From a virus: 28,487 bases of DNA. Shown here piece by piece: positions 1,797 to 28,216 of the stretch (positions are counted from its first letter, which is position 1; the number at the start of each line of letters is the position of its first letter). The position numbers were made by a program, and so were the translations under genes. The DNA is taken from IMG/VR virus record IMGVR_UViG_3300051212_001973, positions 1-28,487 of that record, one strand, 5' to 3'. The notes beneath the pieces are model-generated. The model was not told the origin of the DNA, ran no database searches, and was given only the letters and a program-made list of their open reading frames with translations.

Positions 1797-1804
1797 GATA
1801 TTAG

Positions 1805-2842: not shown

Positions 2843-2854
2843 CGAAGTTTCCTT

Positions 2855-5800: not shown

Positions 5801-6310
5801 AGGATCTTTGGTAAGAAAAGGAAACGTTGTGCCAGCAGCGTCTTTTATCGTTATCCATGTACCTTTTGTTGTTGTGTCGCCAACGTTGCTGCCAGAGAAA
5901 AAAAGGTAACCTTTATTTTTTGGCATATTGTCGTAAATATAACGTTCGTAGCCTGTCATTTGATCAAAAAACAACTCAGTTTCTTTGCGTGTACCATCAA
6001 AAGGGTATCTGTCAAAGATTTTGTTGAAAGCACTGTTAACTTTTACTTGAGCACTGTTGAAAAATACATGGTTTTCAAACAAACTCCAATCAATATTCAA
6101 CTGTTGAGTGCTTTTGATGCCAGAACCTATTGGATCGTATCTAAATGAACCTGTTTCTGCTACAGGTGCTTGAGTTAAAAATTCTCCGTTTTCTGTTTCA
6201 AAAGAAGACAAACCTCCATCTGGAGAGGAAATCCCACGAACAATCGATGGACTAAAAACACCCGGTCGAACACGAAGCAATCTTTGTATTGGAGACATTA
6301 ATGTTGTCAT
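2855..6310 (-). CDS. Baseplate/tail protein with two LamG-like lectin domains (1151 aa)
   Basis: Very large multidomain protein. Residues about 180-345 look like a LamG/concanavalin-like jelly roll, ending in the typical signature FSGALDELRYYKRVVSTDEM. Residues about 485-605 form a helical module resembling phage tail protein I (P2 gpI-like), with the motif ILKSKGTIHGIKSLLRAVGI. A second lectin-like domain follows (about 640-900, ending near SQLRWWSKALTIGEW). The last hundred or so residues include LLPRKTRFQGINYVIQSHML, a segment that fits baseplate proteins. Length and order after gp6 make a gp7-like wedge role possible, but this is inference. Its ATG overlaps the stop of the preceding gene by four bases (ATGA). 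The lectin domains probably contact surface glycans or other fibres. Confidence 0.85.
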   Translation of the reverse strand: MTTLMSPIQRLLRVRPGVFSPSIVRGISSPDGGLSSFETENGEFLTQAPVAETGSFRYDPIGSGIKSTQQLNIDWSLFENHVFFNSAQVKVNSAFNKIFDRYPFDGTRKETELFFDQMTGYERYIYDNMPKNKGYLFFSGSNVGDTTTKGTWITIKDAAGTTFPFLTKDPNGASRLDPITSSISFQFQIYAATGSNTNQVVFQKLQTLSATEQHGFGCFLSSSTGPTADLTFFVASGSTNVMSASISLVKGNWAPVTFTWDRTSGVNQLFGYVSGSLIVTSSQTTIRNLNFATASMFIGTGSNVVAPFFVPQTTFSGALDELRYYKRVVSTDEMLAYQSSSIYAESDLALYYKFNEASGSVSNLVLDHSGKGMHGTLNGYALNTLKVRNINTGSYMGASPMIYEDIRMCPILFPDQPAVVAYRENIIANGASYDSYNPNIITKLIPRQYFTYGQEQAALETEEGEINELQYGSEPNTANLGSTQTLLSLLYMWASFFDEIKLFLDAFSTLRHVDYQQFDTVPDAFLKQLADFYGLDLPPLFIGSDVNQFINGKNITPNIVNSEYTLQYLQNQIWRRILINANDILKSKGTIHGIKSLLRAVGIDGDNIFRFKEYGGPTQRTLDSLRESRNEIGTSLSFKNGGYFKSPYLSGSRVEPGYPTPLGSFIIDPVTGHNTNTTNSSDGLFTSGSWTFEGIYNYAGTPSTSSVQSIVRLMCSGSGSTENVLANLYATSGSGLTLYVRPNSTVGASALTMSITTPDILNGQAWNISFGRDRGDSIGQVSSSYFLRIGRNNLGSIAEEYVTSSLFDDNFGSNSANNMLQVINSTYNVSGAFLAIGSGSTTISASNDFVNLYNLQIFDGKVSQLRWWSKALTIGEWREHVRDYKSLGVADPRVNFNFENFRSGSFEKLRADWSTDQIELTTDSTGSLQIFDFSQHYLHATGTLFPNSKNVIIPERFYYSFISPNFDEAVTDQKVRVRSYQSLDFVDQDGGMYSQAAPVYEIQQEQIPEDNAKFSIDFSIVDSLNQDMIGMFSSLEVFNNILGDPNMMFSPDYPDLETLRDIYFNRLTDKLNVRGFFDFYQWFNTNMGKFIGQLLPRKTRFQGINYVIQSHMLERPKLEYHFEDQYVGANNRNRQKEVILLQLLTGILNKY

Positions 6311-7902
6311 GCTGTTACAACCTTGAACTTAAATCCTTGATTTTCAATCAAATATGTTTCACGATTTTCTTTGATCAAAAATTGTATTTCTAATGGTTTG
6401 TTGATTGGAAGATCTTGCATATACAAAGTAAAATACATACCTCCACCGTCCGCAGACAACTTTGTTCCAACATCATCAAACGGAATCAATACTTCTTTGG
6501 TAAATGGATCAATCAGTCTCCAGTACATTGTTGGAAAAATCTTTGGCTTTATATCATATGGCAAATAAAAGCTGTCAAGCGTTGTGTCATAGTCGTACAC
6601 AAGAACTTGCAGTTTTGTTGAGTCGGTGTTAATGTACAAATCTTTGAGATTGGTTATGTTTATCCCATAGTTTCTTGTTGGTACCAAGCTTTTAGTACCT
6701 TGAAGCGGTTTGAATGACAAAGATGGACCTGTGGTGAATATAACGGTATTATCCACAGACTTCCAAACGGTTTTGAATGTGGTAGAGTTGCCAGAATCCA
6801 ACACCCCAGATAATCCTGTTGTATTCAAAGGAATAAACACATCAGCATAATAGCTTCCTGTTTGATACAAACCACCAAAGCTTATTTGTGAACCTGTAAA
6901 GCTTTGAGAAAAATAGTTCCAACTTGCAGAAGTATAACTGATTGAAGCACTATGGCTTAAACTGTATGTTACAGCAGTAACATAAACACTCTTTGAAGCA
7001 ACAAGTTCCAACATAATACTACCAGAACCAGCTATTTCTGTGCTGCCAGATACAAAGTTTGTTGCCGTGCCAAATGGTGAGTAATACAAACCTATTTTGT
7101 TGTTGTAATCAAAAAACGTTTGTGCTTGATTATCGATAAAGCTATCGTTGTACTTAATCACCAATGCTGGGTGTATGTTTGTGTTTCTTGATTGCCTTGA
7201 AGAAAAACGTTTCACAAAGCGTGTAACTGTATCTGTTTCTTGTGAACCAGAATAAGCTATACGAAAACCATAATCAGGTATTTCTCCTGTTATTGCGGCA
7301 GAAACTGCCGCTGTTACATCAACAAAAAGGTCTTCATCTCCTCTTGGAAAGCTTTGAGAGAACGATAGTGGAACATAACCAAGAATAGAAGAACCAGATA
7401 GATAATAGTCGGCATTAACATCTGCTGTATCTCCAGCATATGATATTCCACCACTGGTCCATGTTGTTACATTTGCACCATCAATGGAAGCTGTAAACCA
7501 GTTCACAGCATCCAAATCACGGTAACCAATAACATCGTTGCCTCTGCCTTCAGTAAAAGCTTTTCCAAGAGGATTAACAACAAGTGCAAAGTTGGAAGGT
7601 ACTGTTTGACCTCCGTAAACGTTTTTCATCGACAAATAAGCTTTAAAGCTTGGATTGGTTACGTCTAGCAAAGAACTTGTTAAAGCTTTAAGAGTGTTTA
7701 AATCAAAGTGAATAACGCCACGAGATATTTCGATACCAGAAGTGCCAGAAGCAACAGGAGTTACATTATATAGCTTGAACAAGTCGATGGTACCAGCTTG
7801 ACCTACATTAGCATCAGTGCTGCGTGACGTAGCTGTTTTGCTGCTAAAAATCAGCTTGTTGGTGACGTATGAATCTTTGTCAGCTTTTAAAATTCTATAC
7901 AT
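6307..7902 (-). CDS. DNRLRE-like virion protein of the baseplate module (531 aa)
   Basis: Begins MYRILKADKDSYVTNKLIFS and continues with a stretch containing NVGQAGTIDLFKLYN. This is the pattern of DNRLRE-type beta domains (a leading 'D-x-Y-V' strand, 'x-N-x-G', then a value-holding strand), and the first ~250 residues fit such a domain. The remainder is beta-rich, with Ser/Gly-rich linkers and a C-terminal part containing YLIENQGFKFKVV. The start is set by a strong TTAGGAGT site five bases before ATG 7902, overlapping the stop of the gp6-like gene. No signal peptide or membrane segment is visible. The location between gp6 and the LamG protein indicates a wedge or peripheral baseplate component. 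Homology to a specific T4 protein is not claimed. Confidence 0.8.
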   Translation of the reverse strand: MYRILKADKDSYVTNKLIFSSKTATSRSTDANVGQAGTIDLFKLYNVTPVASGTSGIEISRGVIHFDLNTLKALTSSLLDVTNPSFKAYLSMKNVYGGQTVPSNFALVVNPLGKAFTEGRGNDVIGYRDLDAVNWFTASIDGANVTTWTSGGISYAGDTADVNADYYLSGSSILGYVPLSFSQSFPRGDEDLFVDVTAAVSAAITGEIPDYGFRIAYSGSQETDTVTRFVKRFSSRQSRNTNIHPALVIKYNDSFIDNQAQTFFDYNNKIGLYYSPFGTATNFVSGSTEIAGSGSIMLELVASKSVYVTAVTYSLSHSASISYTSASWNYFSQSFTGSQISFGGLYQTGSYYADVFIPLNTTGLSGVLDSGNSTTFKTVWKSVDNTVIFTTGPSLSFKPLQGTKSLVPTRNYGINITNLKDLYINTDSTKLQVLVYDYDTTLDSFYLPYDIKPKIFPTMYWRLIDPFTKEVLIPFDDVGTKLSADGGGMYFTLYMQDLPINKPLEIQFLIKENRETYLIENQGFKFKVVTA

Positions 7903-7907
7903 AGTAA

Positions 7908-7912
7908 CTCCT
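7908..7912 (-). promoter_or_regulatory. Strong Shine-Dalgarno for the DNRLRE-like gene
   Basis: AGGAG (within TTAGGAGT) lies five bases before ATG 7902 and overlaps the stop codon of the gp6-like gene, so ribosomes ending gp6 translation are placed directly at the next start. Confidence 0.7.
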
Positions 7913-9776
7913 AAGCAGCTGTTCGACCTACAAGATCAAAGTTAGTATACTTAATTTCAAACATACCTCCCGGTGGAGGTATCAATATCGAGTTGTTGAT
8001 TAAGTTTGTTGTTATGTCATAACGAACGTTGCTGTATGTTCTGTCGCTAACTGTTCCTGTAATATTGGTTGCGGTGATACCTCTAACTGCAAGCACACCA
8101 ACGTTGTTGTATATAATGTTTCTTACATCATCAAGAATCAATGGTTGATCCATTTGAAAGTTGCCAATATTAAAATATTGCACTAGTTTTCCTTGCACGT
8201 TTTGCAACACTTGTTGACGATTGAATGTAGGATCAACAGTTATGTCATAATTGATTTGCAAGTTAACGATTCTGCCATCCAGAATATCGATAGCATCTGA
8301 TATCATACGATACTGATTGAGATACACTTGTAAATTTCTCTTAAGAAGATCTGGAGCAAGAATAAGTTGATTTAGATCGTTTCTGCAAAGAATGTAAAGC
8401 AATGCAGCGTTTGGGTTGTCTGGATTGTTTTGCACTGAAGCACGATATACTCTACCAAAGTTTGCTGGCAACGAATATATTCTCGCCATTAAATCTTCTT
8501 TGCTTACAATGCGGCTTTGCGATGCTCTTGCTGAAGGTATTTGCAAACGAAGTTCGTCAAGAGTTGGAGCATCTGCACCACCTCTACCGGGAGAGTTGTT
8601 GTTTGCATCTGCCGATGCTCTCACCGCCGCTGCTATATCGTTTGTTGGGTTGTTGGGAAAGTCAGTAATCAAAGTGGCTATTTCGGTAATGCTTTGGTTT
8701 GGAACGTTGTGACTTAAACCACCGCCAGCACGATATGTAACAGTGATTGTAACGTTTGGAGCTATAGCACCAAGAGTCGAAGTTCTAAGTAAGTTGTTTG
8801 GATCGATAGCAAATCTAGAAAAATTTTTACGACCATACAAAGGCAAAGCTGCTTCTGATGGATCTGGTACGAGATCATCGTCCATTGTTTGACCAGATCC
8901 TCCACCAAAGGTTAACGTTGTTAGTCTTGTGGCTAGTTCGGTTGTTCGATAGAATCTAAATGGTGCTGGTAGAATTTCTAAGTTTGCTTCAACATATTGC
9001 TCATTTGGAGGCACAGCTGTAACAGGATTACGATTTCTGACCGATCTAAACACTGTATCTTGTGTTAGATAATCCACCTCATAATAGTTGTTACCATCGC
9101 TATCAACAACCGAGATTATATCTGTTACATCTCGGTTTTGAAGAGTGTAACGTTTAAATGGTTCAAAGCCATTAACGGTAAAAGATTCCGTAGAAGTAAC
9201 ACTGCTTAAACAATCTCCGGCAGCTGAAAATATCCAGTTAACTGGATTGCTTGCGTTGTCAACCTCACCTCTGACGTAGCTAATGTTTCTTGCCGGTGTT
9301 CCATCGCTTTTTGTAACAGTAAAATCAATGTCTTCAATTAATTGAAATTGCACTCCACGATTAGAGTTAACTATGGTTCCTTCTTTTACAACAGGTAAAG
9401 CAGTTGTGTTGTATGTTCCTTGAGAATTAACAGGAATACGAAAATAAAAAGTTACTGGTAAAACTGCTGGCGCTGCACCAACAATTTGTACATTTGCTTC
9501 TCTTAACAGCTTTTCAAGATTTTTTGATTCAACAGCTGTTTCGGCATTTATTTCACCAAACTGATGATCAAGATAAAAGCTTTGAACGTCACCAATATAT
9601 GATGCTAGCTCTAGTAGCAAACCACCAAATCCATTAGCAGAAAAGTCTTGTAAACGATCAGGAAAAAACGTTCGAGCATATTCTTCAAGATCGTTACGAA
9701 AAGCATCAAAATCTTTGTTAAGATACTTTCTTGACTTGACGAGTTGGTTTATTGTTCGTCTGGAATCAACCGGCAT
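7911..9776 (-). CDS. gp6: Baseplate wedge protein, gp6/baseplate J-like (621 aa)
   Basis: The N-terminus has the layout of T4 gp6 and related baseplate J proteins: a short basic leader, then DFDAFRNDLEEYARTFFPD and FGGLLLELASYIGDVQSFYLDHQFGEIN, where the helical 'LELxAYxGDxxxFYxDxxxxE' signature is clear. A central beta-rich region follows. A C-terminal part (GRIVNLQINYDITVDP, then a quotient-like domain with DDVRNIIYNNVGVLAVRGI) matches the J-protein C-terminal domain. Length is close to T4 gp6 (660 aa). In the T4 particle this protein forms the inner ring of wedges around the hub. An AAGGTG site precedes ATG 9776 at good spacing. It follows the gp25 gene, the usual order in myovirus tail modules. 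Confidence 0.9.
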   Translation of the reverse strand: MPVDSRRTINQLVKSRKYLNKDFDAFRNDLEEYARTFFPDRLQDFSANGFGGLLLELASYIGDVQSFYLDHQFGEINAETAVESKNLEKLLREANVQIVGAAPAVLPVTFYFRIPVNSQGTYNTTALPVVKEGTIVNSNRGVQFQLIEDIDFTVTKSDGTPARNISYVRGEVDNASNPVNWIFSAAGDCLSSVTSTESFTVNGFEPFKRYTLQNRDVTDIISVVDSDGNNYYEVDYLTQDTVFRSVRNRNPVTAVPPNEQYVEANLEILPAPFRFYRTTELATRLTTLTFGGGSGQTMDDDLVPDPSEAALPLYGRKNFSRFAIDPNNLLRTSTLGAIAPNVTITVTYRAGGGLSHNVPNQSITEIATLITDFPNNPTNDIAAAVRASADANNNSPGRGGADAPTLDELRLQIPSARASQSRIVSKEDLMARIYSLPANFGRVYRASVQNNPDNPNAALLYILCRNDLNQLILAPDLLKRNLQVYLNQYRMISDAIDILDGRIVNLQINYDITVDPTFNRQQVLQNVQGKLVQYFNIGNFQMDQPLILDDVRNIIYNNVGVLAVRGITATNITGTVSDRTYSNVRYDITTNLINNSILIPPPGGMFEIKYTNFDLVGRTAA

Positions 9777-9814
9777 TGTGTTTCACCTTATGTTAGATAT
9801 GGATCAGTGTTATT

Positions 9815-10291
9815 TTACGTAACTGCAAATGTTATTTGCAATCTTGTTGTAGGAACCGATGCTCTTGGTATGCTGTAATCAATCACTATGGTTACAACAC
9901 CTAAACCGGGATCTTGCGCATAAAACGTTTGTGAGCTATCAAATCCTTCCAATTCCACATAAGGCATATATTTGCCAACGGCGTTCATGATTCTTTGCAT
10001 CGCAGCATCATCAAATGCTTCTTTGCCTAGTTCGTATTCAGTAACCAATGGTCCAAGATTTGCCCCGTAATCGTATAAAGCAAGTCTTTCACCCCAGTTA
10101 GTCATAATCAAATCACGTAGATTGTTTTTCATGGTATCACCAACAGTGTAGTGCATACTCAACAATCCGTCGTCACTTGTTCCTAAACGCAATGGTGTAA
10201 CAATACCAATTGGTATAGGAGTTGGTTCTATGGCTCTTTGCTGCGCAGTTAACTCGGCTGATGTAATACCTACACTTTTAAAGCTTATCAT
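9815..10291 (-). CDS. gp25: Baseplate wedge subunit, gp25-like (158 aa)
   Basis: A short protein with the GPW/gp25 family core: PLRLGTSDDGLLSMHYTVGD, then NNLRDLIMTNWGERLALYDYGANLGPLVTEY, in which the conserved 'NLRDLIxTxxGERLxxPDFG' pattern is visible in slightly altered form. A C-terminal strand region (GVVTIVIDYSIPRASVPT) follows. T4 gp25 (132 aa) clamps the wedge core with gp6 and gp53 and is related to the sheath initiator of contractile machines. The extra length lies mainly in the N-terminal leader. The start at ATG 10291 has only a weak ribosome site, 9 bases after the previous stop. A 38-base gap before gp6 holds no hairpin that could be recognised. Confidence 0.92.
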   Translation of the reverse strand: MISFKSVGITSAELTAQQRAIEPTPIPIGIVTPLRLGTSDDGLLSMHYTVGDTMKNNLRDLIMTNWGERLALYDYGANLGPLVTEYELGKEAFDDAAMQRIMNAVGKYMPYVELEGFDSSQTFYAQDPGLGVVTIVIDYSIPRASVPTTRLQITFAVT

Positions 10292-10300
10292 GTTCTATAA

Positions 10301-11086
10301 CTATAGACCAAACAACTTGCGAGCTTCTTGATACCGGCTAACCTCCGATGCCCGCCATTCCGGTGATTCTATTTGAGTTGGAGCTGGTGGCACATTTGCC
10401 GTTGTTGCTCCTTGATTAATTTGCGATTGCAATGCTGTTGTTGCGTTCGAACCTGTGGATGTACCTGCTGGGGCAGCAGTTGCGGTGCTTGCAACAAACT
10501 GATCGAACGTTATGCCAGCAGGTTCACTTGTCATTTCAGTAGAACGTGAATCATTCTGTGAAGAATTTCGTAAGTTTTGTCTGGCTCTTTCTAACTCGCT
10601 GTTTGGAACAATCTCGATATTTCGATCACGAAAGTTATTATAGCTATTAGCTGCTGCTGCTAATGCTTGATTGCTGTTGTCGTTATTCGCAGCGGCCTCG
10701 TCGGCCCTGTTGTTTTCACTTAATGCTTCTTCAATGCAAAGAGAAAAAAATGAACCGATTATTGGCAAAGGATTCAAGATGCTTTTTATAAAACACCATA
10801 TGGCTTTTATGATGGCAAAAGCCATGGCATATGCCATTAGTTTGCGTGGGTCTTGATTTCCGTCTGCTGGTTGCAATATCGCATCTGGCTGAACCTTGAA
10901 CGCTGCGTGAAGACCCTCGCCAAGAGCTCTTGCAGCAAAGTTGACAGGAGCCGGTAAACTACTAACAATTCCCTCGATAACAGCTATTTTTCCTGCTGTT
11001 ATAGCTTTGTTTGTTAGGTCATTAACCAACTTTTGATTTTCTGCGTTTGTTGCTTTATTGTCTCTGATTTCGTCTTCTATAGCCAT
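10301..11086 (-). CDS. Hypothetical protein with hydrophobic segment, tail module (261 aa)
   Basis: Not assigned to a known family. Residues 1-60 are helical and polar to Ala-rich. Residues about 83-117 form a strongly hydrophobic stretch (including FAIIKAIWCFIKSILNPLPI and FFSLC) long enough for one or two membrane passes or a buried helical hairpin. The rest (about 120-261) is Asn/Ala/Thr/Ser-rich and looks disordered until a charged end (SEVSRYQEARKLFGL). No cleavable signal is apparent. It lies between the hub gene and gp25, so it is probably a virion or tail-assembly protein, perhaps one that meets the host membrane during ejection; this is inference. ATG 11086 has no clear Shine-Dalgarno site. 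Confidence 0.75.
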   Translation of the reverse strand: MAIEDEIRDNKATNAENQKLVNDLTNKAITAGKIAVIEGIVSSLPAPVNFAARALGEGLHAAFKVQPDAILQPADGNQDPRKLMAYAMAFAIIKAIWCFIKSILNPLPIIGSFFSLCIEEALSENNRADEAAANNDNSNQALAAAANSYNNFRDRNIEIVPNSELERARQNLRNSSQNDSRSTEMTSEPAGITFDQFVASTATAAPAGTSTGSNATTALQSQINQGATTANVPPAPTQIESPEWRASEVSRYQEARKLFGL

Positions 11087-11117
11087 GTCAGTAAGTAGAG
11101 AGGTAACGTTTTACAAA

Positions 11118-12887
11118 TCATTGCCCAAATATTTTAGTGCTACGGCTTTTGTATACAGCTTGATTTGTTTTGGTTCTAGCATCACGAATAGCGTTCTTGA
11201 GAGTGGTTCGTTTAGCGGCGCTTGCAGTATATAATGGCAGCCAAGCAGAGTTGGGTCCACCATGAACACATACGTTATTAGTAGCTATATTTAAATCATC
11301 AACCAAACCGCTGTAAGCTGTTTGCAATGCATCTATTTGACGCTGCAAGCCTTCAACAACCTTTTTGAACTCACTCCATTTGATGTAAGGCTCTGCACCA
11401 GCAAAAGTGTTTTGATTGCCAACGGACAAAGCATCTGTTGCGCCAGCTTGATTTCTTGGAACATCAGGTGCCGGTGCTTGAGGATTTGCTGGGGCAGGGT
11501 TGGTGTTTATTGCAGCACCACCAAGAAATATTTGCAAACCATCTACTTGAACTCTACCTTCTGGACTCATGTATAGGTAAGCCAAATGATCTGCTGCTGC
11601 GGCTTGTGCGTTCATATCTTCTGGAGTACGATTCTTGCCTTCTTTAAGAATCAACACAGAGCCAGATATCACAGGATCAAGATTGTCTTCTGCTGGAACA
11701 GATCTTCTCGCAATCAATCTTATATGATCGGCTTTAGTTACAACGTATGAAGACCCAACGTTGGCACTTGAAGAACTAAACTGTGTGGGATATAAGCTGT
11801 TAGGAGAATAGTTGATACCAGAAGGTTGTAATGCGTTGTTAACAGCACCTTGATTTGTATTAGCTGTTTTGAAGTTGGTGTCACCCAAAGTTTTCATGCT
11901 CATGTATATGCGGGCAGCATCATGAACAAAATCAGGATCTCCTTCTTTTGTTTGTTCTACCTTGCCATTTAATCGAGGTGCTTTATCAACTTCGTTAAGG
12001 CTTCTTGAGTTTATAATAACAAACGGACTAGTTTTTTTATGCTCTGTAACTGTGCTGTCTGCGGGCGTAAGCAAATAGCGGCTTCGACCTGTTACAAGAT
12101 CAATTGTTCCTGCATAGTTTTTCTGTTCGACTGCTGAACTTGTTACGTAACCCACACGATCTCTGCCCAACATGATAAGAGCATTGTTCATGCCTTGAAT
12201 CACAAACTCTTGTGGACGTTTTGTCCAGCGTGGAACTACCTCATAAGCGTGTTGCAAGCTACCAGAACGTGATTGCTGATATATTGTATCATATGGATTT
12301 GTGTTACTGTCTTGAGGAAGAGTTCGGGTGTTGATAGTGTCGCCACCATTAGGAAAACCCGGAGTATAGCTGGTTCTGTTTAATGATTGACTTGTTCGCT
12401 GTTCTGCGAAATACTCTTGGTTAAATCTTCTATCGTTATGAGTGAAGTTAGGATCTTCGATAGGCAAACCTTCTGGTGTTCTCGTAATCCATTTTCCACC
12501 TTTAAATCCGTATTTTTGAAAGTCTTCGAATACAACAGTAACTTGTTCTCCAACTTGAACAGGAAGCATGAAATGGCTTTGAAAAAATGGAGCAATAAGT
12601 ACTTTGGTTGGTGTTGCATCACTTACACCTTCAGATATAACCGTAGCAATAACGCTGTTTGCAGCTGCTTGATCTATTTCCTCTGGGTTAACTACTAAAC
12701 GTCTTAATCTGTCACGGTCAGCTGTTGACAATTCTTTTGGGTTGTATATGACTTCTTCAACAGTTGCCCGTTGAAAGGTTGGTGGTGAACCAGCCATTTG
12801 GCTGTTCAAGATTAATCTCGTTGGGTCTAACGTCGGCCTTGTTGCACCAGCTAATATTCTTCCAACGTTAACGTTTTCATTAGCCAT
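11118..12887 (-). CDS. gp5: Baseplate hub/spike protein, gp5-like OB-fold (589 aa)
   Basis: Residues about 78-120 (SVIATVISEGVSD, then IAPFFQSHFMLPVQVGEQVTVVF) match the OB-fold of T4 gp5 and VgrG-type spikes, which caps the tail tube and carries the central needle. Later segments such as ADHIRLIARRS, ISGSVLILKEG and YMSPEGRVQVDGLQIFLGG resemble the strand repeats of myovirus hub proteins. A coiled-coil-like stretch (FKKVVEGLQRQIDALQTAYSGL) may drive trimerisation. No lysozyme domain and no clear VxGxxxxx needle repeat is visible, unlike T4 gp5. The start is set by an AGAGGAT site five bases before ATG 12887. It lies two bases after the stop of the 139-aa gene and heads the tail module. Confidence 0.82.
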   Translation of the reverse strand: MANENVNVGRILAGATRPTLDPTRLILNSQMAGSPPTFQRATVEEVIYNPKELSTADRDRLRRLVVNPEEIDQAAANSVIATVISEGVSDATPTKVLIAPFFQSHFMLPVQVGEQVTVVFEDFQKYGFKGGKWITRTPEGLPIEDPNFTHNDRRFNQEYFAEQRTSQSLNRTSYTPGFPNGGDTINTRTLPQDSNTNPYDTIYQQSRSGSLQHAYEVVPRWTKRPQEFVIQGMNNALIMLGRDRVGYVTSSAVEQKNYAGTIDLVTGRSRYLLTPADSTVTEHKKTSPFVIINSRSLNEVDKAPRLNGKVEQTKEGDPDFVHDAARIYMSMKTLGDTNFKTANTNQGAVNNALQPSGINYSPNSLYPTQFSSSSANVGSSYVVTKADHIRLIARRSVPAEDNLDPVISGSVLILKEGKNRTPEDMNAQAAAADHLAYLYMSPEGRVQVDGLQIFLGGAAINTNPAPANPQAPAPDVPRNQAGATDALSVGNQNTFAGAEPYIKWSEFKKVVEGLQRQIDALQTAYSGLVDDLNIATNNVCVHGGPNSAWLPLYTASAAKRTTLKNAIRDARTKTNQAVYKSRSTKIFGQ

Positions 12888-12889
12888 GG

Positions 12890-13309
12890 CTATCCTCTGC
12901 TGTTACGCTTGATTCTATCAAATAGTGCCTTGCTATCTGGTATTTCTTCTGCTTCTTGCTTGTCTTTGGCTTTATAAACCAACTCCGCTAACTTTAATAG
13001 TTGAGTGTTAGCTTTTTCCATACGTTCCATATATTTGGACAAGTGATCGCCATGAATAACATGTTGCTCTGGGTTGCCATGAACTTGCAAATACAAGTCG
13101 GTCCAAATCATGTATGCATTGCGTCGATCAATCAAAGCGTTCTCATAGATTTGCTTCCAAAGCAACTTCAAGCGTTCATCAATACTAGTAATGGAATCGA
13201 GCAGCTCAACAAAGGTCGCTAGGTCTTGATCGGCTTTTTTGATAAGCTGTTGTCCAGATGGATTGTTGTCCATCTGGATTATTTCTTCTTCAAAAGATTG
13301 CGTACTCAT
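12890..13309 (-). CDS. Hypothetical helical protein (139 aa)
   Basis: An acidic-to-neutral, almost wholly helical small protein beginning MSTQSFEEEIIQMDNNPSGQ. A central stretch (IDERLKLLWKQIYENALIDR) and a heptad-like helix (HLSKYMERMEKANTQLLKLA) suggest a compact helical bundle or oligomer. No enzyme motif, zinc site or membrane segment is seen. It overlaps the late sigma gene by ATGA and runs directly into the hub gene. The size and helical character would suit an assembly chaperone or a small terminase-like packaging subunit, but neither can be shown from the sequence. Confidence 0.72.
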   Translation of the reverse strand: MSTQSFEEEIIQMDNNPSGQQLIKKADQDLATFVELLDSITSIDERLKLLWKQIYENALIDRRNAYMIWTDLYLQVHGNPEQHVIHGDHLSKYMERMEKANTQLLKLAELVYKAKDKQEAEEIPDSKALFDRIKRNSRG

Positions 13310-14043
13310 TCTGCTTGCTCATATTCCTGTTTAGACAACTTGTAATGTTTCTTCATTAGAGAAAGCACAACGCTTAATTGTTTGGGCGAAAGAGAAGTTA
13401 TTTCTCTCAAATAAAGCATTACAGCACGTTTGTTAAGAAAATCAAGTTCATTAATGTTGCTGAAAAGTAAGTTGATACCTTTGAGACATTCCATTTCGTT
13501 TTCGGTTACAGCTTTAGCTGCTATCAATTCCAATATCGATTGAATTTTTTGTTTGTTGGTATCATATAATAACGTTTCTTCCGGCGATGGAGAAACACTA
13601 TGATTTTCAATCGTTTCTAAATCGTGTTGAGATAATGCTTCTGTATCATCAATTGATGTAAACACATGTATGTTTCGAACACTTTGTTTGCTCTTGATAA
13701 TCAGCCAGTGTTTTGCAACAACGTTAAAGTAAGAAAAAGCTTTGGTACCTTTGCTAGCATCAAACTTGGTAATCACACCGTAAAGAAACTCAATGCATTC
13801 GTTTTGTAGATCTGCTTTGCTTTCATATTGAATCTGAAAACCATATACGTTGATAAGATTCTCTACAAGTTTGCTAAAAGCTGGAAGAATTTCACGAACG
13901 TATATCTCGTTTCTTTTGGCTGAGTTCGTTTCGGCTTTATAGTCAACAATAGCTTGTTGAGTGTTGGCATTGAAATAAAAATCTTGGGGAGATGCGCCGC
14001 CTTTTGGCTTGCGTTTGATCAGTTTTTTACCGTTAGGAATCAT
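13306..14043 (-). CDS. gp55: Late-transcription sigma factor, gp55-like (245 aa)
   Basis: Sigma-70-like core at residues about 76-118: KADLQNECIEFLYGV, then FDASKGTKAFSYFNVVAKHWLI. This matches region 2 of small phage sigma factors ('fD..kGtkafsYf..v'), which binds RNA polymerase and the -10-type element. The C-terminal part (SLSPKQLSVVLSLMKKHYKLS) could be a helix-turn-helix or clamp-binding tail. T4 gp55 (185 aa) is shorter; the extra length is an N-terminal basic leader and a central insertion. In T4 this protein directs RNA polymerase to TATAAATA late promoters together with the sliding clamp. The gene lies next to the tail genes it would activate. Both neighbours overlap by ATGA. Confidence 0.82.
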   Translation of the reverse strand: MIPNGKKLIKRKPKGGASPQDFYFNANTQQAIVDYKAETNSAKRNEIYVREILPAFSKLVENLINVYGFQIQYESKADLQNECIEFLYGVITKFDASKGTKAFSYFNVVAKHWLIIKSKQSVRNIHVFTSIDDTEALSQHDLETIENHSVSPSPEETLLYDTNKQKIQSILELIAAKAVTENEMECLKGINLLFSNINELDFLNKRAVMLYLREITSLSPKQLSVVLSLMKKHYKLSKQEYEQAE

Positions 14044-14363
14044 TCGTCCTCGTCTTGATCTACAAGCCGTATATAGCGTTGCTTGCTGCGTTGAGTAAAG
14101 TTTTGAATCAGTTTATGAGTTGCTGTTTGGCAAACCTTGACATTTTCCATCGCTTCGTCAACGGCAGCTTTGATTTGTGGATTATCAAAAAACATTGGTG
14201 TTTTAATGATAGCTTCCAAAGCTTTGGCTGTACGCTCATGTACTTCGATAGCTTCAGCAAGATCGTCTTCAAGAATAAAAATAATCTTGGCCCAGCGAAT
14301 TGCATAAAAAGATACAACACAAAGAACTGCCAACAGCAATACTGACAATATATATCCCATCAT
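14040..14363 (-). CDS. Small membrane-anchored helical protein (107 aa)
   Basis: The N-terminal residues about 3-28 (MGYILSVLLLAVLCVVSFYA and onward) form one clear transmembrane helix. The remainder is a soluble helical domain with coiled-coil character and a conserved-looking segment KTPMFFDNPQIKAAVDEAME, ending in an acidic tail (DQDEDE). No cleavage site follows the helix, so it should stay anchored in the inner membrane with the helical part in the cytosol. Two adjacent ATG codons open the frame, with a GAAAG site upstream. It lies between a glycosyltransferase gene and the late sigma gene, overlapping the latter by ATGA. The function is unknown. Confidence 0.75.
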   Translation of the reverse strand: MMGYILSVLLLAVLCVVSFYAIRWAKIIFILEDDLAEAIEVHERTAKALEAIIKTPMFFDNPQIKAAVDEAMENVKVCQTATHKLIQNFTQRSKQRYIRLVDQDEDE

Positions 14364-14365
14364 TA

Positions 14366-15538
14366 TTATTCTTTCAAGTGCTCGTCAAGTAATGATGAAT
14401 AAGTACGTGCTATAGCTTCAAACGAATACAAATCTTTTACTTTTGTTGCGAGCTCGTCGGCCCATTGTTTTGGAATGCTGGCCCCTCCATAAAACTTCTT
14501 CAAACGTTGCTTAACATCTGCCTCTACAGGGATCGCCCATTTTACACCCGGCATAAAGATTTGATTGTCAACTCGGCTTGTTGGGATCGCAGCCAAAGTA
14601 TGATCGATTCCAATAAATCTGCCGTGCTTAAGGAACTCTAAATGACCACTCCAGTTAGTTGCAATCACAGGTAGTCCACATGCTGCTGCTTCTAGAATGG
14701 GCAAACCATAACCTTCGCCGTGAGTAAAAGTTACAAGAGCCTTGATATCTGGATGTGTATATAACCCATGCATTTCTTCATCTGTCATATGACCATGAAG
14801 AAGATAAAACGTTGGTCCGTTTGGTTTCGAAACTTCTCCAACGAGCTTAGAAAAGATACCTGTTACGTTACGCTTGTCGAGTTGGGTTAATGCTCCACTG
14901 TTTGTTTTGATCACAACACCAACATCAGGGCATCCTGTGAAAGTTTCCGCAAGCCACTTCATTGTGTATGGAAGATTCTTACGATCATTTTCTGTGTTGT
15001 TACCTGTTAGTTGCCCAACAACAAGAAAGTTAAACTTGGTTTTCAACCCAAGATCCAACTTAGCTGGTTCACTGGCGAACGCTTCTGGAAATGCTTCCGG
15101 CACCACAATAAGCGGTACCTTTACTTCACCTGAGCTTATAAAAGTTTGCTTTGTAAACTCACTTGGAACAACAACCATATCCATACGATTAATACAGTCG
15201 ATCCAAGCGGGATTGCACTTGTCTGTTTCAACACCGGCAGTTACACCAATGTTGAAGTTACCAAGAAAAGGATTCCATTCGTTTGGAAGTTGAAGTTGAA
15301 CGGTTACATCATAAAAGTTCTTTTTGTTGTTAGCAGCTTGCAAGATTTGGCCGATAAGACCATCCTCAGCTTCTGGATCAACAATAAGATGGCACTTGCC
15401 CCATGAAAGAGGTTCTGTGGTAATATCTAGTTGATGTGTTTCTGTTGCAACACGAAATAACCATTTTGCAATCTGACGAGCGTGAACACCATAGCCAGCG
15501 TGAACCAAAAGTGGAGCTCTAAGTAATACTGATTTCAT
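14366..15538 (-). CDS. GT4-family glycosyltransferase (390 aa)
   Basis: GT-B fold retaining glycosyltransferase of the 'glycosyl transferase group 1' type. The N-terminal glycine loop GYGVHARQIA (residues 15-24) fits the acceptor domain. The C-terminal nucleotide-sugar domain has the classic EX7E motif: E275 and E283 in HGEGYGLPILEAAACGLPVI. No membrane helix is seen, so it should act in the cytosol. Substrate specificity cannot be read from the sequence; the nearby gmd and per genes make a GDP-sugar donor a fair guess. The start has an AGGAAGG site about 10 bases upstream. It follows the other GT4 gene and probably adds a consecutive sugar. Confidence 0.9.
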   Translation of the reverse strand: MKSVLLRAPLLVHAGYGVHARQIAKWLFRVATETHQLDITTEPLSWGKCHLIVDPEAEDGLIGQILQAANNKKNFYDVTVQLQLPNEWNPFLGNFNIGVTAGVETDKCNPAWIDCINRMDMVVVPSEFTKQTFISSGEVKVPLIVVPEAFPEAFASEPAKLDLGLKTKFNFLVVGQLTGNNTENDRKNLPYTMKWLAETFTGCPDVGVVIKTNSGALTQLDKRNVTGIFSKLVGEVSKPNGPTFYLLHGHMTDEEMHGLYTHPDIKALVTFTHGEGYGLPILEAAACGLPVIATNWSGHLEFLKHGRFIGIDHTLAAIPTSRVDNQIFMPGVKWAIPVEADVKQRLKKFYGGASIPKQWADELATKVKDLYSFEAIARTYSSLLDEHLKE

Positions 15539-15556: not shown

Positions 15557-16873
15557 TCATTTCCCAAATGGTCTAAGTTGTTCACAGGTCCAAGTTTTTG
15601 GCTTGTTTGTTTTCCATTCTGTAATGGTTTTATCCAAGCTTTCATCCCAAGCTTTGATCATGTTGTTGTAATCAAACTCAAAATCACAATATTGTCGAGC
15701 TTTTTCCCCAAGAGCTTTGCGTTCTTCTGGACTCATCTTATAAAGCTTGTAATAAGCTTCAGCAACATCAAGATAGTTAACATGGTCATCATAGATGTAA
15801 GGAACCATTTGTGAACCAACCATTGTACGGGCTGCTGGTTCAATAGCAATACCATTTTCTGAACCGTCACGGTGATCAACAACTTGTCTGGTCAATCCAC
15901 CAGTTTTAAGAGCAATAATAGGCTTCCCAACCATCATGGTTGATAGAGTGGCAAGACCAAAACCTTCTGCCTTAGAAACATTGATAGTGAAATCTGAAAG
16001 ATTATAAAGTGCATTCATGTCATTAAAGTCAACTTTTTGAGTTGAAAACATAACATTGTGTGCGATTCCTAGCATTTCAGAAACAGCAAGAAGATTTGGT
16101 CCTTCTGTATCTTGTGGGTCGGTATGCATGATAAGCATCGCCTTACGATGACCTTCTTCTTTTTCCAGACGATCTAGAAAAACACGGAATCCATTAAGTA
16201 CATCGTTTGGCATTTTGCGGGTAGCATTACGGTTAACCCATGTACCAACAAACCAATCTGCCCTGTCTCCAAAGTTCTTCTTACGGAGTTCTGTTCTTGT
16301 CTGCTCAGGAAAAGGTAAATACACTTGTTTTGGAAAAGCGTGTGGAATATAATTTGTGCGTTCTGGAAAGTGTGGCTTAACAAGCTCAAAAGTTTTGTAT
16401 GAAAGACAATTGATAAGATCTGTTGAGCGGTACCATACGTCGTTAAATGCTGGGTATGGATCATTATCCCAAACGTGCCAATAAGCAATCGGGCAAATTT
16501 GATGAATCTCGTCTTCGATTTCCCAAAGCCACATAAACTGACGTGGATCAGTAAATAGCAAAATGGCATCTGGACGTTCATTGATTAGAAGACTACGAAT
16601 GATATCATGGTTACCAAAACCATCAACAGGTTTGATAACGAAATCTGGATTTACCATAACTGTGTCATAGTTTGGGTGCTTGATTGCCCCACCCAAACAA
16701 CGGAAAGAATATTTCCCTGTGTTCAAAAGACCTTGGATAAGAAATCTTGCTTGAACACCTACTCCACTTGTACACAATGGATGATCCGAAAGCATTAAAA
16801 TCTTGTGTTTGCGTGTTGGCGTGGGGATTGCAACGCTTGGCAAAGAAGTAACTTCTTGAGAGCTGTCTGACAT
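15557..16873 (-). CDS. GT4-like glycosyltransferase with altered EX7E motif (438 aa)
   Basis: GT-B glycosyltransferase beginning MSDSSQEVTSLPSVAIPTPT. An upstream ATG at 16945 would add 24 residues, but ATG 16873 has a GAAAGG ribosome site at ideal spacing and avoids overlap with the preceding remnant gene. The N-terminal domain carries the glycine loop LCTSGVGVQARFLIQGL. The C-terminal domain has KAEGFGLATLSTMMVGKPII, where the second Glu of the GT4 EX7E motif is replaced by Ser. Many GT4 relatives tolerate change there, so it may still be active. No membrane segment is seen. It pairs with the next gene, another GT4, as the last two sugar genes before the phage core. Confidence 0.85.
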   Translation of the reverse strand: MSDSSQEVTSLPSVAIPTPTRKHKILMLSDHPLCTSGVGVQARFLIQGLLNTGKYSFRCLGGAIKHPNYDTVMVNPDFVIKPVDGFGNHDIIRSLLINERPDAILLFTDPRQFMWLWEIEDEIHQICPIAYWHVWDNDPYPAFNDVWYRSTDLINCLSYKTFELVKPHFPERTNYIPHAFPKQVYLPFPEQTRTELRKKNFGDRADWFVGTWVNRNATRKMPNDVLNGFRVFLDRLEKEEGHRKAMLIMHTDPQDTEGPNLLAVSEMLGIAHNVMFSTQKVDFNDMNALYNLSDFTINVSKAEGFGLATLSTMMVGKPIIALKTGGLTRQVVDHRDGSENGIAIEPAARTMVGSQMVPYIYDDHVNYLDVAEAYYKLYKMSPEERKALGEKARQYCDFEFDYNNMIKAWDESLDKTITEWKTNKPKTWTCEQLRPFGK

Positions 16874-16881
16874 TATTATTG

Positions 16882-16887
16882 CCTTTC
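16882..16887 (-). promoter_or_regulatory. Ribosome-binding site that decides the GT4 start
   Basis: GAAAGG on the minus strand, 8 bases before ATG 16873. It supports the internal start over the longer one at 16945. Confidence 0.6.
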
Positions 16888-16928
16888 GAGAGAATTTAGC
16901 TTGCCGGGATACACTACAAATGTTTAGT

Positions 16929-17126
16929 TTAGTAGCCTCTAACATTTGAATAAACAGTCTTAAACCATTCGCATGTTTGTTTTAAGGCTGTATCAAAAGA
17001 AGTATAGTCTCGTTTTGCCCAACTTGTTTTCTCTTTTGATGTAGGAGCGAGAAACGGCTCATTAATCAAGTATGATGCTAAAGCTTTGCCAACCAAACCA
17101 GAGCAACCAGTTATCGATATTGTCAT
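16929..17126 (-). pseudogene. fcl: GDP-L-fucose synthase remnant with internal in-frame deletion (65 aa)
   Basis: A 65-codon open frame whose two halves match opposite ends of a GDP-L-fucose synthase (Fcl/TSTA3 type, normally about 310-320 aa). Residues 1-30 (MTISITGCSGLVGKALASYL, then a stretch ending FLAPTS) carry the Rossmann glycine motif TGCSGLVG. Residues about 38-65 (YTSFDTALKQTCEWF, then NVRGY) match the C-terminal helix of the family ('F-x-P-F-x-x-A-x-x-x-T-x-x-W-F'). About 250 residues, including the catalytic Ser-Tyr-Lys set, are missing. The ATG lies one base after the gmd stop, the normal gmd-fcl arrangement. ATG 17156 is also in frame but lies within gmd. The enzyme cannot be active; a small stable peptide is possible. 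Confidence 0.82.
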
Positions 17127-19460: not shown

Positions 19461-20074
19461 TGTTCTCGTCTTTCTTTTTTGAATATCAAGCAACTATTTT
19501 CTGCAATCGTGCGATATTCAAAACTAGTTTCGTGCTTTTTTGCAAGATTAATGTAAAAATGTTTATCAAACAACCAATTTGGTGAAGAGTTCATCATTCC
19601 ACCCCATTGATATTCTTGTTTTTCTGTTGTATTTCCAAGTCTTACACGAGCTAAGAAAACGATATCGTTTTGTTCTATTAGCAAATCAAGAAGTTCTTTT
19701 GGTTTTTCAACCATATTAATGGTGCTATCCATAAGCACACAATCATAGCCCTTAACTTGCTTCATTTCCTCCAAGTTATCTAAATCAGAGTAAAAAAACC
19801 TTGTGGTAGCAGAGTCAAAATAAGAGTTGGCAAAATCTAAACACGATTCGTTGATATCGTAACCATCACAATAAAATCGATCTGACAGTTTTTTTAGTGC
19901 ATAGAACCATCTGCCGTTTCCACAGCCAAGATCTGCGATTCTCGGCTTGGTAATCGATTTTGTTAGCCCATGTACGCATTCAGCAATACCACTGTGTAAA
20001 ATAGAAACATTTGCTTCGAAATCTTGCAAATAACCATGCGCAATCGCAACTTCTTTTTTTGCCCATTCTTTCAT
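19457..20074 (-). CDS. Class I SAM-dependent methyltransferase (205 aa)
   Basis: Rossmann methyltransferase with a clear motif I, IADLGCGNGRWFYAL (residues 46-60), and a motif II acidic end, CDGYDINESCLDFA. A segment near the middle (YDCVLMDSTINMVEKP) marks the catalytic-side strand. It is compact and soluble. Relatives with this pattern methylate sugars or small molecules, and its place between a ColD-like enzyme and an FkbM gene suggests a sugar substrate. It overlaps the ColD-like gene by ATGA and the dehydrogenase remnant by ATGA, so translation is coupled on both sides. The exact position methylated cannot be inferred. Confidence 0.87.
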   Translation of the reverse strand: MKEWAKKEVAIAHGYLQDFEANVSILHSGIAECVHGLTKSITKPRIADLGCGNGRWFYALKKLSDRFYCDGYDINESCLDFANSYFDSATTRFFYSDLDNLEEMKQVKGYDCVLMDSTINMVEKPKELLDLLIEQNDIVFLARVRLGNTTEKQEYQWGGMMNSSPNWLFDKHFYINLAKKHETSFEYRTIAENSCLIFKKERREQ

Positions 20075-21234
20075 GGTGTTTCTTTTTCTGTTGTTGTTAT
20101 AATGTTCGAAACTTTTTCAATATCTGTTTTTGACAACATTGGATGATTTGGAACATACAAGCCATATTCATTGATACGCATTGCGTTATCAACCTTGTAA
20201 CGTTGAGGAAAGTTTTTAGTGTAAAACGGTTGGCTTGTCATAGAACCAGCAATCAAAGGTCGAACTTGAACGTTTTCATCTTGCAAGCGTTTTACAATAT
20301 TGTTCTTAGCTTTTGATATCACTGGATATGCGAAGTTCGAAACAAAGCAGTCTTTGGCAACAACTGGGCTCCATTCTGTTTTTACTAAGCGTTTGTAGAG
20401 CTTATAGTTTGCGTTGCGATTTTTAATGATCTTTGGCAACTTGTCTAGCTGATCGATTCCCAAAAACGCTTGCAAATCGGTAGAACGAAAATTAAAGCCA
20501 AGATAATAAAAAGTGTATAACGAACTAAATGCATCTACATTGAACTCGGTTTGTAGTTTTGTTTTTTGTTCAGTCGTCAAATCACGATCCCATCCATGAT
20601 TTCTAATAGACTTAAGAACCATGTTTAGTTCTTCATCATTGGTAGAAACCATGCCGCCTTCGATAGTAGAAATATGATGACCAAAATAAGAAGAAAAAAT
20701 GCTCATTGCTCCGAACGTTCCAAGTTGTTTCCCTTTGTATGCAGAGCCAAGAGATTCACAAGCATCTTCTAACAAAATAACGTTATATTCGTTACAAAGC
20801 TTAACAATTTGATTCATGTCTGGTACTAAACCAAGAACTGAAACCAACAAAAGTACTTTTGGTTTTTCTGTTTGAAACAAATATTCAAGTTGCTTTAAAT
20901 CAACTGACAAATCTTGCAGATTGCAGTCACAAATAACTGGTTCAAATCCAAGTTGAACAACAGATGAAAAATCTGTTGCCCAAGACAAAGCAGGAACAAC
21001 AACTTTACAGCCACGGTCGATTCTTTTTGCTTCCAAAAGAGCTTGAAGCATCATGATGATAGCAGATGATCCAGAGTTAACGAATGTGCTATGCTCCATT
21101 CCCAACATCTTCGACCACTTGTTCTCAAAATCAATAGTTAATGGACCTTTTGTTAGTCTGGGGTAGGTCTTTAGCCACTTAATCAATCGATTTACGTCAC
21201 GTTTATCAATGGTGTCTTTTACTAGTTCTATCAC
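20071..21234 (-). CDS. PLP-dependent ColD/E1-like 3-dehydratase, Lys replaced by His (387 aa)
   Basis: Member of the DegT/DnrJ/EryC1/StrS fold: VNSGSSAIIMMLQAL near residues 52-66, PALSWATDFSSVVQLGFEPV (81-100), and the PLP-pyridine Asp in LLEDACES (D157). Where aminotransferases carry the Schiff-base Lys, it reads SSYFGHHISTIEGG, with His186-His187. This HH is known from ColD (GDP-4-keto-6-deoxymannose 3-dehydratase) and E1, which remove the C3 hydroxyl. The N-terminal KTYPRLTKGPLT also fits ColD. Substrate and product (a 3,6-dideoxy-4-keto sugar) are inferred from family and from neighbouring gmd. The start is GTG 21234, and the family-like N-terminus supports it. A different HH-containing dehydratase is the main alternative. 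Confidence 0.85.
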   Translation of the reverse strand: MIELVKDTIDKRDVNRLIKWLKTYPRLTKGPLTIDFENKWSKMLGMEHSTFVNSGSSAIIMMLQALLEAKRIDRGCKVVVPALSWATDFSSVVQLGFEPVICDCNLQDLSVDLKQLEYLFQTEKPKVLLLVSVLGLVPDMNQIVKLCNEYNVILLEDACESLGSAYKGKQLGTFGAMSIFSSYFGHHISTIEGGMVSTNDEELNMVLKSIRNHGWDRDLTTEQKTKLQTEFNVDAFSSLYTFYYLGFNFRSTDLQAFLGIDQLDKLPKIIKNRNANYKLYKRLVKTEWSPVVAKDCFVSNFAYPVISKAKNNIVKRLQDENVQVRPLIAGSMTSQPFYTKNFPQRYKVDNAMRINEYGLYVPNHPMLSKTDIEKVSNIITTTEKETP

Positions 21235-21241
21235 TGTTTTC

Positions 21242-22333
21242 TCACTTTTTGTAAAAAGCTTTTACACACTCAATAACAGTTGTTTGTTGATCTTGTTTTA
21301 GTTCATAAGATGAAGGCAAAGACAAAGCTCGATCATATATGTGTGCGCTATATGCGTATTGTTCTTTGTTTAGGTTCATATAGCTATAGCAAGGTTGTAC
21401 ATGCAATGGATAAAAAAACAACCTACTGCCTATTTGATTCGCTTTTAGATGCTCTTGTAGCTTTTCTCTATTCTCTGTCAAAAGAGAAGTAAACCAAAAC
21501 ACAGGCCGAGAAGTTTCTGGTCTGATTGGACAAAACATAAGTTCATCGATACCAGATAGCTCTTCAATATATCGATCATGAATTTCTTTTTTTCGAGCTA
21601 TAACTTTTTCTAGTTTTGTTAGTTGAGCTAAACCTACAGCCGCTTGCATTTCTGTGAAAGAAAAGTTGAATCCGATTTCTTCATGAATAAAGACGCCTTT
21701 TCTGTCCCGCCCATGATTTTTCAGTCGATAGCATTTGTTACGCAACTCTTCATTATTTGTAAGAATAACACCACCTTCGCCACAAGTAATGGTTTTATTG
21801 CCGTAAAAAGAAAGAATACCAATGTCACCAAACGTTCCAACATGCTTGTTGTTATGAAACACACCCATTCCTTGAGCTGCATCTTCAACAACATAAAGAC
21901 CATGTTTTTTGGCCAAATTCATCAATGGTTCCATGTTCGCACTTTGGCCGTAAAGATGCACTGGAACGATTGCTTTTGTTTTCGGAGTTATAAGCTTTTC
22001 TACGTTGTTTGCATCCAAGCAATAATAGTCTTTTTCAACTTCAGAAAACACTGGTGTTAATCCTGCCATGATAGCAGCATTGGCCGTCGCAACAAACGTT
22101 ATGTTTGGCACAATCACTTCATCTCCCGGCTGCAAACCAAGAGCCTTGAATGCGCAATAAAGAGCAGCAGTACCGTTCGTAAACGCCATCGCATATGTCG
22201 ATTGAGTATATTCTTTTATTGTTTGCTCAAATCGTTCGGTGAACTTATGCTCGGTTACATACTTTGTTCTAATAGAATCTGTCAAATATTCGAGTTCAAC
22301 ATCATCGATCCAAGGCTCGATTTGGTTTATCAT
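21242..22333 (-). CDS. per: GDP-perosamine synthase-like aminotransferase (363 aa)
   Basis: PLP sugar aminotransferase with the Schiff-base lysine K180 in SFYGNKTITCGEGG, almost identical to the RfbE/Per signature. It also has FTNGTAALYCAFKALGLQPG (51-70), PNITFVATANAAIMAG (76-91), and VVEDAAQ with D151 and Q154 for cofactor binding. Such enzymes convert GDP-4-keto-6-deoxymannose, the Gmd product, plus glutamate to GDP-perosamine. Length is typical (about 360-370). The ATG overlaps the upstream stop by ATGA, so it is coupled to the DUF6165-like gene. No N-acetyl- or N-formyltransferase for perosamine was seen nearby. A relative acting on a UDP-4-keto sugar cannot be fully excluded. Confidence 0.85.
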   Translation of the reverse strand: MINQIEPWIDDVELEYLTDSIRTKYVTEHKFTERFEQTIKEYTQSTYAMAFTNGTAALYCAFKALGLQPGDEVIVPNITFVATANAAIMAGLTPVFSEVEKDYYCLDANNVEKLITPKTKAIVPVHLYGQSANMEPLMNLAKKHGLYVVEDAAQGMGVFHNNKHVGTFGDIGILSFYGNKTITCGEGGVILTNNEELRNKCYRLKNHGRDRKGVFIHEEIGFNFSFTEMQAAVGLAQLTKLEKVIARKKEIHDRYIEELSGIDELMFCPIRPETSRPVFWFTSLLTENREKLQEHLKANQIGSRLFFYPLHVQPCYSYMNLNKEQYAYSAHIYDRALSLPSSYELKQDQQTTVIECVKAFYKK

Positions 22334-27315: not shown

Positions 27316-28216
27316 ATTGTTTACTAATCCATTCTGGTAGCACAACTTTCGGCTCCCAGTTTAACAAACGTTTAGCTTTCGAAATATCAGCCAAGGTTTC
27401 TCTTGACTCGCCTTTGCGCTCTGGGATAAAGGAAACGGTTGTTACTGGTTTGCCAATCATTGTGGCTAGGTCCATCATATCATAGTTCACACCGGTACCA
27501 ATGTTGAACAACTCTCCATCAACATCTGCATTTGTTGACAACGCAGCCAAAACATTCGCTTCCACGACATCATCAACATGAGTAAAATCTCTTCGCTGCA
27601 AACCGTCACCAACAATAGTCATCGGCTGGCCAGCCTGATGCTGACGCATAAACAACCCCACTACCGGTGCGTATTGACCTTTTAAGGGCTGGTTCTTTCC
27701 ATATACATTAAAGTACCTTAGAGTAACAGTTGAAAGCCCAAAAAGGCGTGTATAAAGCTTGCAATATTCTTCTCCTGATACCTTGGATACAGAATATGGA
27801 GTAAGGCAATCTGGTGACATATCTTCTGTATATGGTACTTTGTGTTTGCGACCATATGCTGAAGAAGTAGAAGAATACACAACACGTTTTACACCAAAAC
27901 TGCGTGCCGCTTGCAACACATTAAGGGTGCCCAACACGTTGGTTTTGGTTGTTAAAAATGGATTAATCAAAGAAGGTTGAATGCGAGCTTCAGCAGCAAG
28001 ATGAAAGACACAATCAACACCTTTAAATAAGGTGGCTACGTTTGAATAATCACATACATCGTAAACATGATTTTCTGCTTTGCTGTTCCAATAAAACTTG
28101 TCATGACATTCTGCCGATTCATTATCGATAGCAATAACTTCATGGTTATCGGCTAGTAGCCTGTCAACTAAATTTGAACCAATAAATCCAGCGGCACCCG
28201 TAACGAGACATTTCAT
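27302..28216 (-). CDS. NAD-dependent sugar epimerase, GalE-like (304 aa)
   Basis: Extended short-chain dehydrogenase. Residues 6-13 (TGAAGFIG) are the NAD-binding loop, then HLAAEARIQPSLINP (about 72-86). The catalytic Ser region is YSSTSSAYG (114-122), and Y141/K145 lie in TPYSVSKVSGE. C-terminal FNVYGKNQPLKGQYA and RRDFTHVDDVVEA fit UDP-hexose 4-epimerases and related nucleotide-sugar dehydratases. The most likely role is 4-epimerisation of a UDP-sugar, feeding the neighbouring transferases; a UDP-glucuronate decarboxylase-like role cannot be excluded. The first gene of the sugar cluster, it has an AAAGGAACG site and a 19-base gap after the nuclease gene. Confidence 0.88.
   Translation of the reverse strand: MKCLVTGAAGFIGSNLVDRLLADNHEVIAIDNESAECHDKFYWNSKAENHVYDVCDYSNVATLFKGVDCVFHLAAEARIQPSLINPFLTTKTNVLGTLNVLQAARSFGVKRVVYSSTSSAYGRKHKVPYTEDMSPDCLTPYSVSKVSGEEYCKLYTRLFGLSTVTLRYFNVYGKNQPLKGQYAPVVGLFMRQHQAGQPMTIVGDGLQRRDFTHVDDVVEANVLAALSTNADVDGELFNIGTGVNYDMMDLATMIGKPVTTVSFIPERKGESRETLADISKAKRLLNWEPKVVLPEWISKQYGRL

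Follow-up and report, generated by a model that had tools for sequence, protein, structure and literature searches.

A reading frame of 65 codons lies immediately behind the gene for GDP-mannose 4,6-dehydratase (gmd) in a viral genome fragment, and the question raised by this locus is what the frame represents and how it has arisen. The window, i.e. the whole stretch of DNA analysed, comprises nucleotides 1 to 28,487 of the IMG/VR record IMGVR_UViG_3300051212_001973. Genes for the baseplate wedge and for a late sigma factor, encoded in positions 1-15538, are indicative of a T4-like phage, and contigs related to the window reach 241-260 kb. On the basis of sequence comparisons the frame is interpreted, with good confidence, as what is left, without function, of a phage gene for GDP-L-fucose synthase (Fcl), illegitimate recombination having presumably deleted about 250 residues together with the catalytic core.

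A short frame behind gmd and its two halves

The coordinates of the remnant and of the features surrounding it are given in Table 1. The ATG of the frame is situated one base past the TGA of gmd (17130-17128), and its start, its stop and its coupling to gmd are intact. An alternative in-frame start at position 17156 would give a product of 75 aa, beginning within the 3' end of gmd. An earlier note on this DNA had drawn attention to the tiny frame after gmd; its existence and the gap of one base are confirmed here and its strand is corrected to minus, the plus strand of 16929-17126 having stops throughout and no open frame on translation.

Table 1. Location of the remnant frame and of associated features in the window
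Feature	Position	Strand	Basis
Glycosyltransferase, group 1, 438 aa from ATG 16873	15557..16873	-	Pfam; PHROG 2170; relatives L082-L161
55-base leader of the downstream glycosyltransferase	16874..16928	-	Similar to the L083 leader, which follows a different gene
65-aa Fcl remnant (predicted)	16929..17126	-	ATG 17126-17124, TAA 16931-16929; translation and homology
C-terminal piece EKTSW...NVRGY and stop	16929..17033	-	34 codons, shared E counted in both pieces; similarity to nine Fcl C-termini
Inferred deletion junction AAAGAG	17031..17036	-	DNA of relatives; 3-4 bases of microhomology against L137 and L126
N-terminal piece, putative Rossmann start of Fcl MTISITGCSGLVG...APTSKE	17031..17126	-	32 codons; agrees weakly but consistently with the starts of the Fcl group matched by the C-terminal piece
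gmd, GDP-mannose 4,6-dehydratase, intact, 325 aa	17128..18105	-	TIGR01472, 453.7 bits (cut-off 415)
ColD-like GDP-4-keto-6-deoxymannose 3-dehydratase (predicted)	20071..21234	-	WbdK/ColD 2gms, E 3.6e-57; GHHIST..EGG motif
Perosamine-synthetase-like sugar aminotransferase	21242..22333	-	3bn1, E 8.5e-71

The C-terminal half of the product (residues 32-65, EKTSWAKRDYTSFDTALKQTCEWFKTVYSNVRGY) shares a sequence identity of 67-76% over 33-35 residues with nine full-length Fcl proteins of 312-324 aa from related phage contigs, with E-values down to 5e-19 under short-query settings. A tblastn search with the whole 65-aa frame against the loci fetched with the neighbouring glycosyltransferase gave E-values to 4e-14, and the domain E-values of the remnant against the Fcl profile are 9.7e-14 and 1.3e-7. 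A profile built from the nine Fcl proteins matches, in the whole window, only the segment of the C-terminal half; the one other hit is a weak one to a GalE-like epimerase encoded at 27644-28216. To judge from these alignments, residues 32-65 are clearly the C-terminus of an Fcl.

The N-terminal half (MTISITGCSGLVGKALASYLINEPFLAPTSKE) carries the nucleotide-binding motif GxxGxxG of Fcl as TGCSGLVG (residues 6-13), and its top matches are the N-termini of the very Fcl group to which the C-terminal half belongs (L119, E 2e-4; L126, with 'IYAPTSKE'). The E-values against Fcl starts of the L119 and L126 type range from about 2e-4 to 1e-1 in a small set, and the match to the Pfam Epimerase family (E 0.043) falls below the cut-off. 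The match is in position, starting at or near residue 1 in both proteins and extending to the junction, and the placement as an Fcl N-terminus may hence be considered good, but statistically weak. The earlier reading, in which the N- and C-terminal ends of an Fcl are joined in frame after an intact gmd, is supported by these alignments to relatives, the second half in particular aligning significantly with full-length Fcl proteins and related loci.

As a whole, the remnant of 65 aa does not qualify as a full-length Fcl, for which a domain of some 310-320 aa has to score over the curated threshold of the family; a search of NCBIfam gave no matches and one of Pfam none above cut-off. Among phage records tblastn returned a single weak match (LR756511, E 0.08) confined to the C-terminal half, and a DNA search of these records gave no near match to the remnant. 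Peptide-pattern searches of viral contigs identified no relative of the 65- or 75-aa frame, and no description of such a remnant was found among the papers searched.

The junction, the missing core and the fate of the product

The two halves meet at APTSKE/KTSW, where L126 reads APTSKELN and the remnant APTSKEKTSW. On the N-terminal side the DNA of relatives reads TCAAAAGAGCTTAAT (L137) and AGTAAAGAATTGAAT (L126) and on the C-terminal side TTATTAGAAAAAACAAGTTGG, while the remnant reads TCAAAAGAGAAAACAAGTTGG across the junction. Since MAFFT placed the N-terminal half wrongly around a large gap, pairwise alignments with hardly any gaps were used to locate the junction, and its refined position falls inside the range of 17013-17036 proposed earlier. 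A search for short repeats at the junction had also been proposed, and the parental sequences, as represented by relatives and not by the true parent, probably shared about 3-4 bases at this point, which fits illegitimate recombination. Recombination across these few homologous bases would have joined codon ~32 to codon ~280.

The same observation bears on the possibility that a full fcl exists and that the assembler joined its two ends. That the window is a single metagenomic contig speaks for such an artefact, but the shared 3-4 bases are far below the k-mer lengths of assemblers and the DNA of the Fcl N- and C-termini is not repetitive, and a collapse of this kind is improbable. A degenerate pattern of the junction had no matches in IMG/VR, a collection from which near-identical records may be left out.

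In comparison with parents of 312-324 aa the remnant lacks 247-259 residues, in agreement with the earlier estimate of about 250. The lost core, residues ~60 to ~277, is highly conserved in the nine relatives and includes most of the invariant positions of the family. The catalytic Tyr-x3-Lys motif of the SDR enzymes, present in all nine (GYAYAKRM), is part of this loss, and therefore the predicted product cannot be a working Fcl.

The 65-aa product could alternatively be a functional mini-protein or a translational coupler that has been retained. Its frame is intact and starts next to the stop of gmd, and the pN/pS of the C-terminal half against near relatives is low (0.23-0.32, as against 0.3-0.4 for intact Fcl C-termini at similar distance and 0.17 for gmd), though this value rests on 34 codons and does not separate decay from function. 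Against this proposal, the joined form is without a homolog in viral contigs, in phages and in the 250 related loci, a clear Shine-Dalgarno sequence is absent ahead of the frame, the single-sequence AlphaFold2 model is poor and unconvincing, with a mean pLDDT of 58 and no confident fold, and the next gene has a leader of its own. Such a role is accordingly regarded as hardly probable. Still less credence is given to the related proposal that the product is purposely kept, for instance to space translation behind gmd or to regulate, as a small protein, the enzymes of nucleotide-sugar metabolism, and that it signals a change of this phage from fucose to an amino- or dideoxy-mannose. The earlier note had considered, as one possibility, selection for an open frame that serves downstream translation. 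Neither part of this is upheld, as a deletion keeps the frame by chance in one third of cases and the glycosyltransferase has its own 55-base, L083-like leader. The remnant, once formed, would probably be translated through coupling to gmd and be inert. Comparison with near relatives shows no signature of relaxed selection in the C-terminal half, which, like the intact start, stop and coupling to gmd, counts against the reading as a decayed remnant; in the simplest view the deletion would be young compared with the divergence.

Other short Fcl fragments were not found in about 250 related loci, apart from cuts at contig ends and the locus L099 (3869-4825), where an fcl upstream of gmd is disrupted and split into two frames of 125 and 172 aa.

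Gene order and an exchangeable slot

The Gmd of the window is 80-86% identical to its near relatives. The usual order in related contigs is fcl, gmd and then the glycosyltransferase, sometimes with other genes between. The position of fcl was tallied around 112 distinct gmd genes with enough flanking sequence, a sample partly biased as one query was Fcl: it immediately precedes gmd in 77 cases, lies before it at a distance of up to 2.5 kb in another 15, follows it in 7 and is missing from the vicinity in 13. In each of the nine relatives that share the Fcl type, fcl stands immediately before gmd, whereas the remnant is downstream; from this reversal of order the cluster is judged to be rearranged as well, and more than one event is needed, a point that the simple loss of the middle of one gene leaves unexplained. 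No related locus was retrieved with the methyltransferase gene that precedes gmd.

The slot just upstream of the glycosyltransferase leader is occupied by different genes in different phages: fcl-gmd in L137 and L001, per...gmd in L082 and L085, per-colD in L094 and other, unrelated sugar genes in L083, L084 and L089. These differences, together with the resemblance of the leader to that of L083, indicate that the locus is shaped by cassette exchange as well, beyond a single deletion in place. ORFs with Cys-rich, zinc-finger-like starts are located just ahead of the glycosyltransferase gene in L092 (4766-5689) and L119 (4785-5657), loci in which the detected glycosyltransferase ORF starts late (379-401 aa). 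The one in L092 has a sub-threshold match to restriction endonucleases, and these ORFs may represent mobile genes for endonucleases that have entered this slot.

In L104, L106, L111, L113, L117, L119, L126, L137 and L161 roughly the first 55 residues of Fcl are strongly variable, in contrast to the high conservation of the remaining protein, and the N-terminus is thereby suggested to undergo recombination or diversification. The gmd of L104 (3621-5828, the same contig as L163 10939-13146) encodes 735 aa. Two halves, 84% and 77% identical to the window Gmd, are separated by some 400 additional residues that match LAGLIDADG_3 below threshold, and this phage GDP-mannose dehydratase may thus contain an intein.

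The variable Fcl N-termini, the reversed order and the frequent exchange of the slot are also in keeping with a hybrid origin, in which an incoming cassette, terminating in gmd and the initial ~32 codons of its own fcl, was fused by recombination to the 3' part of another fcl already resident beside the glycosyltransferase leader. The pieces would then derive from two genes, with no internal deletion of any one gene, and the product would be equally non-functional. The top matches of the N-terminal half (L119, L126) lie, though weakly, in the same Fcl group as the C-terminal half, which speaks against two sources, and the hybrid origin is considered possible but rather unlikely. Most likely the frame was left behind, without function, by a deletion in a plastic slot for sugar genes, within a surface-sugar cluster upstream of the conserved glycosyltransferase and baseplate genes.

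Fate of the Gmd product and comparison with known systems

With fcl truncated, the intact Gmd would still yield GDP-4-keto-6-deoxymannose. Genes for a Per-like and a ColD-like enzyme adjoin in the window (20071-22333) and are also found together in L241 and L242. The ColD-like protein is closest to ColD/WbdK among solved structures and has the active-site His that replaces the aminotransferase Lys, its GHHIST aligning with SHHIAT of WbdK/ColD. Perosamine synthetase is an enzyme that uses GDP-4-keto-6-deoxymannose. The same compound, the product of Gmd, is the substrate of ColD (PMC8987622). The chances are about even that the ColD-like and Per-like enzymes can use the Gmd product in place of fucose synthesis, and an uncommon GDP-sugar, 4-amino and/or 3-deoxy, may be what the two produce together. 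When bacterial genomes were searched with patterns of the ColD-like enzyme no relative was retrieved, so that the pair could not be linked to a bacterial cluster.

It had been suggested that the deletion freed the Gmd product for other sugars. The two genes in the cluster provide circumstantial support, and the suggestion is plausible; but loss of fcl is not required, because L241 has the same pair beside intact fcl and gmd. On the 241-kb contig that includes L242 the pair is present and gmd and fcl are undetectable. An intact fcl could also be encoded elsewhere in the phage, outside the 28.5-kb fragment.

The locus offers a clear snapshot of the turnover of a phage surface-sugar cluster, in which a deletion across short homology would have severed one branch of a pathway, leaving in place the first enzyme common to the branches and two enzymes of alternative ones. 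Phage cassettes that are exchanged can be expected to contain such leftovers of genes, and the present one is regarded as real but fairly ordinary. The fcl gene is counted among the auxiliary metabolic genes of cyanophages (PMC10436341).

When compared with the Fcl/WcaG/TSTA3/GMER family (NCBIfam NF047922), the remnant shares the N-terminal Rossmann start, the C-terminal helix and the adjacency to gmd, but of about 315 residues some 250 are gone, and with them the catalytic motif and the core that binds the substrate. With the colitose pathway (Gmd, ColD, ColC) the window has in common a Gmd and a ColD-like protein in which the active-site His is kept; it differs in that no intact reductase of the ColC/Fcl type is found in the window and that the partner of the ColD-like enzyme is a Per-like aminotransferase. 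With the gmd-fcl and other sugar cassettes of T4-like phages it shares gmd, glycosyltransferases and methyltransferases beside baseplate genes, and it differs from them in an fcl that is reduced and downstream of gmd, where most relatives have theirs directly upstream.
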